Source: Flavobacterium aciduliphilum
Lineage (GTDB): Bacteria; Bacteroidota; Bacteroidia; Flavobacteriales; Flavobacteriaceae
DNA length: 64,000 bases
Direction of reading: 5' to 3'
NCBI RefSeq assembly: GCF_003268855.1
Contig: NZ_QLSZ01000001.1
Span: forward strand, 135,369 to 199,368
Shown here: positions 4,128-55,955 of the stretch, in pieces
Layout: each line of letters opens with the position of its first letter
Position numbering within the stretch: the first letter of the stretch is position 1
Notes under the pieces: model-generated
The model's database searches: none
What the model saw: only the letters and a program-made list of their open reading frames with translations
Told to the model about the DNA's origin: nothing
Translations under genes and position numbers: made by a program

Positions 4128-5039
4128 ATGAAACTACTCACGTATACGCTAAAAGAAAATTTTGAATCACGACTAGGATTTATTCACAATAATCACATTA
4201 TAGACATGGAGGATTTTGGTGAAATTTCCAATTTTCCGCTTCCCAACGATATGTTGGATTTAATCGATATGGGATTTGAAATTATCGAAGAAATTACAGA
4301 AATGATTCAGGAAACGCCTGCGAATTTTTTTGAAGAGATTTCGTATGAAATGGATGAAGTTACCCTTCTCGCTCCCATTGAAAAACCAAGAAAAAACATC
4401 ATTGGAATTGGTTTAAACTATACCGAACATGTTGCCGAAAGTGCTCGAACTTTGGATACCACTGGAAAATTACCTCAAAAACCAATCATATTTTCAAAAC
4501 CACCAACAACAGTTACTGCAACAAATACTGAAATTATTAAGAATACCAAACTAACTCAACAACTAGATTGGGAAGTGGAATTGGCTGTTGTGATTGGTAA
4601 AAAAGGAAAATACGTTTCAAAAACAGATGCAATGGACTATGTTTTTGGCTATACAGTAATCAACGACATTTCCGCTCGTGACTGTCGAAGAGAAGGCCAA
4701 TGGATTGTCTCCAAAGGACAAGATACATTTGCACCTATGGGGCCAATTCTAGTAACTAAAGACGAAATCGAAAATCCACACAACTTAGATTTATCGCTAA
4801 AAGTAAATGGCGTTGAAAAACAAAATTCAAATACCAAATTTCTCTTATTTAATATTAATGATTTGATAGAGGATTTAAGTACGGTTTTCACTTTAGAACC
4901 TGGTGATATTATAGCAACAGGAACACCATCAGGAGTTGGAGCTGGAAGAGATCCTCAAGAATGGTTGTACGATGGCGATGTTGTAGAAGCCACAGTGGAA
5001 GGAATTGGAACAATAGTAAATACAGTTAAGGAAATATAA
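4128..5039 (+). CDS. fumarylacetoacetate hydrolase-family enzyme, candidate maleylpyruvate hydrolase
   Basis: A 303-residue FAH-fold protein. Visible family motifs are IGIGLNYTEH, the metal-ligand stretch DWEVELAVVIGK, INDISARD, GQDTFAPMGP and IATGTPSGVG near the C-terminus. Family members hydrolyse or decarboxylate 2,4-dioxo acids using Mg or Mn. Between gentisate dioxygenase and maleate isomerase, the expected reaction is hydrolysis of maleylpyruvate to maleate and pyruvate; this substrate is inferred from context. Fumarylpyruvate hydrolase is the main alternative, but no maleylpyruvate isomerase is nearby to feed it. Confidence 0.8.
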   Translation: MKLLTYTLKENFESRLGFIHNNHIIDMEDFGEISNFPLPNDMLDLIDMGFEIIEEITEMIQETPANFFEEISYEMDEVTLLAPIEKPRKNIIGIGLNYTEHVAESARTLDTTGKLPQKPIIFSKPPTTVTATNTEIIKNTKLTQQLDWEVELAVVIGKKGKYVSKTDAMDYVFGYTVINDISARDCRREGQWIVSKGQDTFAPMGPILVTKDEIENPHNLDLSLKVNGVEKQNSNTKFLLFNINDLIEDLSTVFTLEPGDIIATGTPSGVGAGRDPQEWLYDGDVVEATVEGIGTIVNTVKEI

Positions 5040-53503: not shown

Positions 53504-53545
53504 GTTGTGATTTCTTTTTGAGTATAACTTTATCTGAAAATGGCA

Positions 53546-53632
53546 CACGAAAGGATGAGCTACGCTGAACTTCGTTTCGTGCACCAGCAAGTAGTTTTAT
53601 ATCTATTACTACTACGAAGTCGGGAGACTTCG
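53546..53632. repeat. hairpin-bearing intergenic element beside the methyltransferase gene
   Basis: CACGAAA (53546-53552) pairs with TTTCGTG (53575-53581), and CGAAGTC (53615-53621) pairs with GACTTCG (53626-53632) around GGGA. A weak open frame (53540-53743, forward) crosses it but has no protein-like features. The second hairpin overlaps the last codons of the methyltransferase gene, so its C-terminal residues are read from repeat DNA. Confidence 0.55.
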
Positions 53633-54208
53633 AAGAGCTGGGCTGTCAACTTTAAACAAAGTAATTCCCCAAAAAACTTTTTCAGATTGTTTGACTACTT
53701 CTTTTCTTTTCAATTGATATTCTTCACTTATTTCTTGAATTAAATCTTCTCGAATTCCATAAAATGAAAAAATAAAATATCCTCCATCATTTAAGTATTT
53801 TGAATATCGCCTTAATATTTTCATTTGATCGTCTAAATAATAAAGCACTTCATTAAAAATTATTATATCAAATTTTTCTTCTGGAGTAAATTGCTGAATA
53901 TCTGAAACTATAAATTTTGAATTAATGAAACTTTCTTTTTTAGCCCTAGAAATTGCATTAGATGATAAATCAACTCCTAAAATAAATTCATAGTTAACAC
54001 CTTTTAAATATTTATTTAAAGATCCGTATCCACAGCCTAAATCTAAAATCTTCAAATTTTTAAATTCACAACCTTTTATTAAATCTACAATTTTAGAATA
54101 TCTTAAATTCTCTTCATCCATAAAGTCCCACTTTCCTATACTATACTTATAATTCCAACTAATCTTCTTTTTAAACCACTTTAAATTCCTTTTAAAATTT
54201 AATTTCAT
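53612..54208 (-). CDS. class I SAM-dependent methyltransferase, repeat-derived C-terminus
   Basis: A 198-residue protein. The SAM-binding motif is LKILDLGCGYGSLNKYL and the following acidic motif is FILGVDLSSNAISRAKK; motif IV is FDIIIFNEVLYYLDD. The N-terminal 50 residues are basic and aromatic. Substrate unknown: small O- or N-methyltransferases of this type are common in polysaccharide and secondary-metabolite loci. The final residues, after FKVDS, are PALRSLPTS, encoded by the CGAAGTC-GGGA-GACTTCG hairpin, which suggests the original end was replaced. It is more AT-rich than its surroundings and isolated, consistent with transfer. Confidence 0.8.
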   Translation of the reverse strand: MKLNFKRNLKWFKKKISWNYKYSIGKWDFMDEENLRYSKIVDLIKGCEFKNLKILDLGCGYGSLNKYLKGVNYEFILGVDLSSNAISRAKKESFINSKFIVSDIQQFTPEEKFDIIIFNEVLYYLDDQMKILRRYSKYLNDGGYFIFSFYGIREDLIQEISEEYQLKRKEVVKQSEKVFWGITLFKVDSPALRSLPTS

Positions 54209-54261
54209 TTTTATTTAATAAAACCGCAATGTCCCGTTGCAGTATTTATATAAAAAAATCA

Positions 54262-54463
54262 GCGTGAGACAGTTGCTTGTACTCGTAGCTGAGGGAGTCG
54301 AAGCCCTATAAAACAAAGTAAAGCAACGCTCACGTTTTTCGTGAGCGAAAACTTAACCTTCCCTGTTGTATAATGAAATTTCGACTTTTCAGCTACAGGT
54401 AGATTAGCAAACGCTAATATTATTTTTCGATAAAATGGTGTACTCCTAATAATGAGCACCTTG
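54262..54463 (+). other. structured intergenic segment with competing hairpins
   Basis: Within the 953-nt gap between the methyltransferase and lipoprotein genes. CGTGAG (54263-54268) plus GTTGCTT (54272-54278) can pair with AAGCAAC (54321-54327) plus CTCACG (54329-54334). Alternatively GCTCACG (54328-54334) pairs with CGTGAGC (54340-54346). TTAGC/GCTAA and GGTG-CTC/GAG-CACC stems follow, and CCATCAC/GTGATGG lies at 54522-54545. No T-run follows any of them, and there is no protein-like frame. Confidence 0.5.
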
Positions 54464-54592
54464 CAAAGGTATAAAAAATAATATTTTATCTATATCTGCA
54501 ATTCATTTATTAATAGAAAATCCATCACGCTTTAATTTGTGATGGTAAATCAGTACGTTTTCGAGAGGGTGCATTGGGGTAATTGATATCAT

Positions 54593-54886
54593 CCGTTCGT
54601 TTTTTATACAAATCCCAACAGTTTTAAAGCTATTCCGTTGGGTTTTGAGTCAAATCCGTTAGGCTTTGGCGTCAACCTGTATTCCCGTGAGGTAAAACCG
54701 TTAGGTTTTGGCGTAAGTCCATACGGCTTTGGAGCAAAACCTTACAGCTGTGGGTCACGGGAATACGACTTTGGTGCATGGCACTAGTGCCACGCTTCAA
54801 AACCAAACGGATTTGACTCAAAACCATACGGCGGCGGTCCAAAACTATACGACTTTACCTCAAAGTCGAACGATTTTGTTTTTTTG
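54593..54886. repeat. 21-bp tandem array of paired palindromic boxes (14 units)
   Basis: Fourteen consecutive units of exactly 21 bp, degenerate, of the form CCNTACGG then N then TTTG-N3-CAAA then N. Each unit holds two small palindromes, CC(4)GG and TTTG(3)CAAA, about one helical turn apart. The array is also symmetric: 54641-54660 is a perfect 20-bp inverted repeat of 54806-54825, and 54679-54690 of 54755-54766 (12 bp). A 14-bp perfect palindrome, TGGCACTAGTGCCA, sits at 54779-54792. The copy of TCCGTTCG at 54592-54599 recurs at 54931-54938. Frames across it give heptapeptides (PYGFGAK; TALVQNR-like) but lack start codons, so it is unlikely to be coding. Confidence 0.85.
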
Positions 54887-54998
54887 CCTTCTTGTAAATT
54901 TTAATTCGTGAGGGGAAATTGTCAAATACGTCCGTTCGAGTGTTTTTTGTGTAATGAAATGAAGCAAAAAATGTATCGAGAACCAATATGAGCAAACA

Positions 54999-55144
54999 CT
55001 ACAAACTCAACCTAAACGCTTCAATGACAGGATTGGCTTTCCCAAAATCGACTTCTTGAATGAACAACTCAACCGCTTTGGGCGTGGCAATACTTGGCAA
55101 CACATTGGCTTGATTGTTGTTTCTAATAACTACACTAATGTTAG
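54999..55144 (-). pseudogene. 5'-truncated copy of the DUF2007 gene
   Basis: The frame NISVVIRNNNQANVLPSIA through PVIEAFRLSL and a TAG stop is nearly identical to the last 48 codons of the DUF2007 gene at 55810-56025, but the first 23 codons and any start are missing. At the DNA level 54998-55144 matches 55809-55955 over 147 bp with only scattered substitutions. It forms one arm of a direct repeat enclosing the lipoprotein gene. Confidence 0.85.
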
Positions 55145-55161
55145 CGTAATGTAAACTAAAA

Positions 55162-55728
55162 TTAGTTTTTTAATATGAAAATCCATTTCCATTTACTTGG
55201 ATCTCCAATACCAACACCAGGTGTATATAAGAACAATTTTGCAGTAGCAGATGGATTATTTGCTCTGTAGTTATTTACAATTTCTAAATATCTTATAGCA
55301 TCAAAAATTTGTGAATAATTGTAAGAGGTTCCAGATGGATTAAATACATTTTCAAACACCGGATCTGGTACTGCAACAAATGTATTGATATAATTGTATT
55401 GGTTAGCTGGTAAAAAAGAGGTTGGAAAATGAATTTGACCTTCACCCATCCAAATGATGTCACCATCGAATAATTTCGTATTTAACTCACTATAAAACAA
55501 TTTGATATTACCGAAATCCGCAGGTGGACTATATTGATTACTAACTGTAAATGTACTCGTTTGATTTGGAAAAATGAACTCATTTCCTCCTTCAAATGTA
55601 TTTGTTTGATAATCAACTTTCAATAACAAAATCTTATTTTGCTGAGCTTGATTATTTAAATTATCGTTAGATCTTGAATCACAAGAAATTTGAGACAATA
55701 CGACAAGTAATAAAAAAATATATTTCAT
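55162..55728 (-). CDS. uncharacterised lipoprotein
   Basis: A 188-residue lipoprotein: signal KYIFLLLVVLSQISC with the lipidated Cys at residue 16, followed by an Asn/Asp-rich linker typical of surface-exposed Bacteroidota lipoproteins. The mature domain (about 35-188) is beta-rich with many aromatic residues. No family recognised. It lies alone between the two copies of the DUF2007 repeat, so it seems to have arrived with, or caused, the duplication. Confidence 0.75.
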   Translation of the reverse strand: MKYIFLLLVVLSQISCDSRSNDNLNNQAQQNKILLLKVDYQTNTFEGGNEFIFPNQTSTFTVSNQYSPPADFGNIKLFYSELNTKLFDGDIIWMGEGQIHFPTSFLPANQYNYINTFVAVPDPVFENVFNPSGTSYNYSQIFDAIRYLEIVNNYRANNPSATAKLFLYTPGVGIGDPSKWKWIFILKN

Positions 55729-55808: not shown

Positions 55809-55955
55809 ACTACAAACTCAACCTAAACGCCTCAATGACAGGATTAGCTTTTCCAAAATCGACTTCTTGAATGAACAACTCAACCGCTTTGGGCGTGGCA
55901 ATACTTGGCAACACATTGGCTTGATTGTTGTTTCTAAGAACTACATTAATGTTAG
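55809..55955. repeat. 147-bp direct repeat, parental copy
   Basis: Same strand and same length as 54998-55144, with a handful of single-base differences (for example CGCTTCAATG against CGCCTCAATG). This copy lies inside the intact DUF2007 gene. Spacing between the copies is 664 bp and contains the lipoprotein gene. Confidence 0.9.

Follow-up and report, generated by a model that had tools for sequence, protein, structure and literature searches.

The tandem array described here is probably, though far from certainly, a noncoding minisatellite of 14 diverged and nearly self-complementary 21-bp units, able to form a hairpin over nearly its whole length, that has been held in register by slippage of whole units and by copying between loci. 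It lies in a stretch of 64,000 nucleotides from Flavobacterium aciduliphilum (contig NZ_QLSZ01000001.1), which we call the window. Features are given in window coordinates in Table 1, together with the arrays of similar spacing from the survey described below.

Table 1. Features of the array locus and survey arrays with 21-22 bp spacing
Feature	Position	Strand	Basis or spacing
ORF, methyltransferase-like by eye, behind leader; ATG at 54208	53612..54208	-	
Structured 5′ leader RNA, just upstream of ATG 54208	54243..54424	-	match to model R1
Bacteroidota-type -7 box TANNTTTG (TACCTTTG), possible leftward promoter between array and leader	54464..54471	-	
Flank, 95/100 columns identical in paralogue; dyad CCATCAC-N10-GTGATGG inside	54492..54591	.	
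Tandem array, 14 diverged 21-bp units, consensus CCGTACGGCTTTGGTGCAAAA	54593..54886	.	autocorrelation, unit table
Left outer inverted-repeat arm, 20 bp perfect	54641..54660	+	
Left inner arm, 12 bp perfect	54679..54690	+	
42 bp (two units) absent from paralogous array	54727..54768	.	alignment gap
Right inner arm, 12 bp perfect	54755..54766	-	
Right outer inverted-repeat arm, 20 bp perfect	54806..54825	-	
Second 42 bp (two units) absent from paralogous array	54817..54858	.	alignment gap
146-bp copy (97%) of DUF2007-like gene end, apparent mark of recent insertion	54999..55144	-	
Array L084			spacing 21
Array L085			alternating 21-mers, lag 42
Array L116			alternating 21/22, lag 43
Array L061			spacing 21
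Array L102			spacing 22
Array L076			spacing 22

The array occupies 294 bp (14 x 21) between two genes and is noncoding. Its self-match was 0.52, 0.55 and 0.51 at lags of 21, 42 and 63, and 0.14-0.33 at the remaining lags from 8 to 65; the value at lag 21 lay above all of 2000 shuffles (0.2525 +/- 0.027, maximum 0.348). The near-equal values at the three lags indicate that no indel disturbs the phase, and bear out the exact 21-bp period over 14 diverged units that an earlier note on this DNA had described. TRF, run with a minimum score of 30, did not list the array because the units are too diverged. The units are continuous and have no spacers between them, unlike the identical repeats and unique spacers of a CRISPR, and Rfam 15 gave no family match to the array (best 19.1 bits, to mir-39, versus a gathering score of 62).

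Each unit had been described as a pair of small palindromes, CC(4)GG and TTTG(3)CAAA, half a period apart. The consensus does nearly match its own reverse complement, at 16 of 21 positions where shuffles give 11.1 +/- 1.6, but the boxes are idealised: CC(4)GG is intact in 6 of the 14 units, TTTG and CAAA each occur in 7, and TTTG(3)CAAA is complete in three (units 3, 7 and 11). In any periodic sequence that is its own reverse complement, each dyad axis entails another at a distance of half a period. The second palindrome of the pair is thus forced by periodicity and does not count as a separate observation. The outer and inner inverted repeats are exact, and neither pair extends. By their coordinates, the spacers between outer and inner arms are 18 and 39 bp, differing by 21, which agrees with the 21-bp indel that had been claimed. 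An inverted-repeat search yielded 75-nt arms (54594-54668 and 54798-54872) with 71% complementarity. The long inverted symmetry is only modestly above that of unit-order shuffles (p = 0.02, 200 shuffles; uncorrected, with 14 arrays). Predicted folds of both strands were far better than those of shuffled sequence (100 shuffles each), with z -8.7 (-121 kcal/mol) on the minus strand and z -5.4 (-106.5 kcal/mol) on the plus strand, so that a long hairpin, as had been suggested, appears possible.

ORFs of 56 and 60 aa overlap the array, as would be seen if it encoded a protein of heptad repeats. The probability of this reading is negligible: stops occur in every one of the six frames, both in the array (54570-54890) and in its paralogue, by which a coding heptad repeat was rejected for both paralogues and is refuted at this locus. 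Two frames of the array in L020 lack stops, which indicates that such arrays can pass for hypothetical proteins, as the note had surmised.

The source genome (2.74 Mb, 29 contigs) contains one paralogous array, on contig 2 (L009, about 4755-4967), behind a pyrophosphatase-like gene. The other BLAST matches in this genome at E up to 1 were three of 16-17 bp, with E 0.2 or more. The main alignment of the paralogues covers 54204-54831 of the window at 78% identity (494 of 636 columns); a second, shorter one extends to 54888. The paralogue has 10 units to the 14 of the window, and the two gaps of exactly 42 bp show that units are gained or lost whole. Since in-register exchange of this kind preserves the period without selection on geometry, the earlier argument from a kept period to such selection is weakened. 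Identity to the paralogue is 33-40/50 in four blocks of the leader region (54200-54392), and 39/50 and 45/50 in array blocks 54592-54641 and 54642-54691. From these values, and from the similarity of the flank, we infer that the two leader loci are older and that array and flank were recently copied from one to the other. The block may instead be under selection: parts of it (the flank, and the array at 45/50 but not at 39/50) are more alike than the leader. A second short repeat, at 53521-53588 and in L009 (61/68 identical), is common to both array loci and lies some hundreds of bases past the leader.

Between array and leader, the -7 box is a candidate element of a promoter of the -7 box / -33 TTG type of Bacteroidota; no -33 TTG lies 16-21 bp from it. 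On the other side of the array, a direct repeat of 146 bp (97%; 54999-55144 and 55810-55955) flanks an ORF of 188 aa. Searches of the stretches of eight relatives by tblastn gave no match to the methyltransferase-like ORF or to the 188-aa ORF, and no 21-bp array was found in these stretches at the threshold used. The genes that we presume to be DUF2007-like and ABC-F-like are separated by about 87 bp in G021 (76% across the regulator region) and by 1.4-2.4 kb in G013 (81%), G012 and G023; in the other four relatives the ABC-F-like gene was not seen beside the DUF2007-like gene. Because the relatives' stretches lack matches and the outer genes are adjacent in G021, the whole piece from the methyltransferase-like ORF through leader and array to the 188-aa ORF has the appearance of an insertion, marked by the 146-bp copy.

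This apparent insertion, and the two copies with a common flank at unrelated loci, would fit a minisatellite inside a non-autonomous mobile element, in which array and flank moved as one between loci. BrickBuilt of Porphyromonas provides a precedent in the same phylum and is, by analogy, the nearest known system in kind. In the accessible part of its description (PMC4596501), BrickBuilt is an intergenic 23-bp minisatellite in a MITE of Porphyromonas gingivalis, with 19 copies per genome and terminal inverted repeats resembling IS5-family elements; terminators and/or polyadenylation sites are predicted around 10 of the 19 copies, and hypothetical ORFs of unconfirmed expression are annotated over it. 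As far as that account goes, both arrays are intergenic, are built of imperfect tandem units roughly two helical turns long, gain and lose whole units, are predicted to form long stem-loops, and have a leader-like flank and multiple copies with a common flank (two here). BrickBuilt differs in its unit sequence, and the two features that define it in the same account, the 23-bp unit and the terminal repeats, are absent here: the unit is 21 bp, and no inverted pair of at least 10 bp joins the outer flanks within 54300-55200. The array is also present in two copies only, and on its left it merges into a leader that is repeated independently. We regard a mobile element as an unlikely explanation.

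The spacing was surveyed in 121 stretches (2.33 Mb) that were not chosen for arrays, 20 from the own genome and the remainder from the genus and wider phylum; L115, which was chosen for its array, was omitted. Intergenic sequence was that outside ORF calls of at least 80 aa, ignoring ORFs made up mostly of an array, so that some short genes were counted as intergenic. The composition-corrected score made no call at 4.5 or more on Markov sequences, and a small control of 150 kb of E. coli K-12 gave no intergenic row at 4.8 or more. In the sample, 36 intergenic and 63 coding rows scored at least 4.8; seven coding rows at lag 21, a lag as in heptad proteins, were set aside. At or above 6.4, a cut picked after the list was seen, there were 18 intergenic rows. 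Six are noncoding arrays of 21-22 bp spacing and other sequence (Table 1), and eight, at lag 13-14, are at least partly 7-bp repeats. L135 looks like tandem tRNA genes, L088 (lag 33) is probably a short gene, L110 (lag 35) is a repeat of about 105 bp, and L072 is known from its lags alone (39 and 42). Lag 21 recurred twice among the 18 weaker intergenic rows, in L122, apparently coding sequence, and in L097, known from the lag alone. A further 291 kb of loci, assembled for other purposes and partly overlapping, added two 21-bp arrays, L049 and L053. Low-score rows at lag 20-24, which looked AT-rich or coding, were not counted, and L109 and L122 were rejected as noncoding arrays because they look like repetitive coding sequence. 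L093 was rejected as CRISPR-like; its repeats (L093:3100-4300) end in CAAACCACAAC and are spaced about 66 bp apart.

In 166 stretches (2.48 Mb), TRF, which requires higher identity than the composition-corrected scan, found 35 noncoding arrays of at least 3.5 copies. Nineteen had a period of 7, and only L084, L085 and the heptamer-like L119 a period of 21 or 42. Arrays of short period, mostly 7 bp, were the commonest noncoding tandem repeats sampled (L097, L102:319-486, L119, L127, L129, L188, L195).

By eye, the 21-22 bp arrays appear unrelated in sequence, except for L020, the paralogue and a set in G423. The fixed spacing asserted in the earlier note thus recurs with other sequences, but as 21, 22 or alternating 21/22 bp. 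Unit length, whose constancy the note had made its own test, is somewhat variable among related arrays, and an exact two-turn rule fails for the 22-bp and 21/22 arrays here and for the 23 bp reported in the accessible part of PMC4596501; such a rule is attractive but loose. It is conceivable, and we put it forward with considerable doubt, that intergenic arrays widespread in Bacteroidota, and perhaps in other phyla (L018), have largely free letters and a spacing held at 21-22 bp by a geometric rule at the DNA level, in their making or in their function, and that they typically lie behind gene ends or terminators.

Positions were compared for 12 arrays, with the paralogous pair counted as two and genes taken from ORF calls. 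Ten adjoin a gene 3′ end: seven lie between tandem genes, all seven nearer the upstream 3′ end than the next start, and three between convergent ends (L183, L116, L020). L085 and L061 are the exceptions. The flanks of ten of the 12 were read for terminators, and a hairpin and T-run was found between stop codon and array in 5/12 (the paralogue, L183, L076, L102, L084); the array of the window is 276 bp from the nearest ORF end and has no such terminator. A location past the gene end, and often past its terminator, argues against a role in the mRNA 3′ end and favours a role as DNA or tolerance in a quiet spacer.

Placement behind gene ends would also suit an array that acts on read-through transcripts, as a hairpin RNA or as a back-up terminator, and predicted folds were very stable (z <= -4 on at least one strand, 60 shuffles) in 6/12 arrays, namely this array, its paralogue, L053, L084, L116 and L018. 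The other six folded weakly, with z above -4 (L061, L076, L049, L085, L102, L020), and five arrays already lie behind a hairpin and T-run. Folding both strands of the 12 arrays gave no consistent advantage to the sense strand; selection on an RNA strand was therefore rejected, and the hairpin RNA proposed earlier lost ground. We consider an RNA-level explanation improbable. Symmetry beyond unit shuffling was seen elsewhere in L053 and L116 (p 0.01) and L027 (0.025; uncorrected, 14 arrays), with p 0.09 or more in the other 10 of 14. Consensus self-complementarity was nearly 3 sd or more above shuffles in three of 14 arrays (this array, the paralogue and L116), with approximate bounds for the paralogue and with L116 divided at a constant 21 despite its 21/22 alternation, and was about 2 sd above in L053 and L024. 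Palindromic units, clear in these three alone, were rejected as a feature of the class. Palindromic units and strong hairpins are common to some arrays, not all.

Of 199 genus genomes, the own among them, three matched the array by BLAST with three candidates scored per genome: the own (self and paralogue), G062 (28 bp) and G146 (24 bp). A shorter exact pattern was confined to the own genome among these 199, and a two-unit pattern with up to three mismatches occurred in 3 of 395 phylum genomes (own; G423, whose repeat of about 21-22 bp is a different one; and G491, where one site is known from this match alone). The exact pattern was found in 11 stretches of a genome-contig collection, among which L020 and L018 are strong 21-bp arrays. 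L020, an uncultured Bacteroidetes contig, contains 11 matches within a single array, whose unit pattern is that of the array in the window. L018:373-606, from a Phycisphaerales contig outside Bacteroidota, is a 21-bp array with a ACCGCGCGGT-like core. Three places in G423 (L024, L027, L029) have 21-22 bp arrays of related AAAGCCCGCGGGCTTT-type units, indicating that the repeat sequence is dispersed in that genome. No phage or plasmid homologue of the array was found at E 0.01, and no viral contig contained the exact pattern.

The L020 and G423 arrays, the recurrence of 21-22 bp with other sequences, the dyads of this unit and the phase kept through gaps could together mean that the array is under selection as a platform for a nucleoid protein or for one that binds DNA cooperatively, with its boxes on one helix face. 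Set against this, array sequences differ even within one genome, the array is hardly present in congeners, marked self-complementarity is limited to three of 14 arrays, and 22-bp and 21/22 arrays leave one helix face at 10.5 bp per turn. A single platform sequence spread through the genome was rejected, as there are two full sites only. The sequence-specific binding protein of the earlier note gains little support where most arrays have their own sequence; the L020 unit pattern in another organism qualifies that case, and would not be predicted by independent slippage. A protein platform seems to us unlikely.

Other known repeats correspond less closely in kind. Plasmid iterons are direct repeats of roughly 17-22 bp at two-turn spacing. 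The array shares the direct repeats and the two-turn spacing, but its contig looks chromosomal and no replication initiator ORF was seen nearby by eye. REP and BIME elements are one common sequence in many dispersed copies; the palindromic sequence of the array has two full sites in the own genome, and in a strict tandem period. It resembles them, from the accessible parts of PMC3733652 and PMC3116915, in being extragenic palindromic DNA. TAACTGA heptamer arrays are likewise intergenic short tandem arrays in Bacteroidota, with 7-bp units in the portion of PMC4679880 available, whereas our array has no signal at lag 14 (0.22). A literature search, with most subscription journals outside it, gave no account of a 21-22 bp array class in Bacteroidota among the matches listed, of which BrickBuilt and the heptamer repeats were relevant.

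The leader RNA beside the array is a separate, testable lead. BLAST with 54200-54610 matched 19 of 299 genus genomes (own included), G157 and G172 by 26-38 bp alone. An alignment of 19 copies, from which the incomplete L054 was dropped and the short matches L057, L058 and L060 were left out, has 34 predicted pairs, 15 with two-sided changes. All 19 copies show a pseudoknot of perfect 6-8 nt complements that co-change in three classes. The covariance model built from these copies found the leader in 73/150 genus genomes and in 20/247 phylum genomes from 8/121 genera (own genome included, with four copies). In 37 model-aligned matches, 239 cells changed on both sides versus 72 +/- 7 in shuffled alignments; this alignment leans towards structure and includes, as one row, an echo from the opposite strand of the window (32.7 bits). 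Copies besides that of the window are in L036, L037, L041-L056 and L209-L247. The genes behind them often look surface-protein-like; going by the first part of each gene as read by eye, lipoprotein-like, secreted LamG-like and type III methyltransferase-like ones are frequent. L235 and L238 have no gene behind the leader within the range tested. Rfam 15 gave no match to the leader at E up to 5, and on 12 leader-holding loci no leader match at E up to 0.5 and one tRNA only. The leader is a covarying RNA family without an Rfam match. Structured 5′ regions without Rfam hits are reported for F. psychrophilum in the accessible part of PMC9723704, and the leader may be among them.

We return to the minisatellite reading. 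Growth and shrinkage of the array would occur by slippage or unequal exchange between units, and its arms may be kept alike by template switching across the dyad, for which quasipalindrome correction is the general basis. Array and 100-bp flank would have been copied between the two loci, into a weakly constrained spacer like those in which other arrays lie past gene ends and terminators. If the array has an effect today, it would be a local and dispensable one at the DNA level, as a cruciform-prone spacer upstream of a promoter. Some observations argue against this reading: from slippage alone one would expect periods to spread widely, whereas 21-22 bp stands out among non-heptamer arrays, and the long-range symmetry exceeds that of shuffled units. 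A neutral reading is also partly one of absence of evidence.

None of slippage, template switching and inter-locus copying accounts for the 21-22 bp common to differing arrays, which suggests a possible DNA-level constraint on the length at which arrays form or survive. The spacing, more than the sequence, is thus the part of the array that needs explanation. Inherited sequence does not readily account for a period common to arrays with no evident sequence in common, so something may measure about two turns of DNA. If that were identified, one origin of spurious hypothetical proteins would be accounted for, and arrays behind terminators might turn out to act as spacers or insulators.
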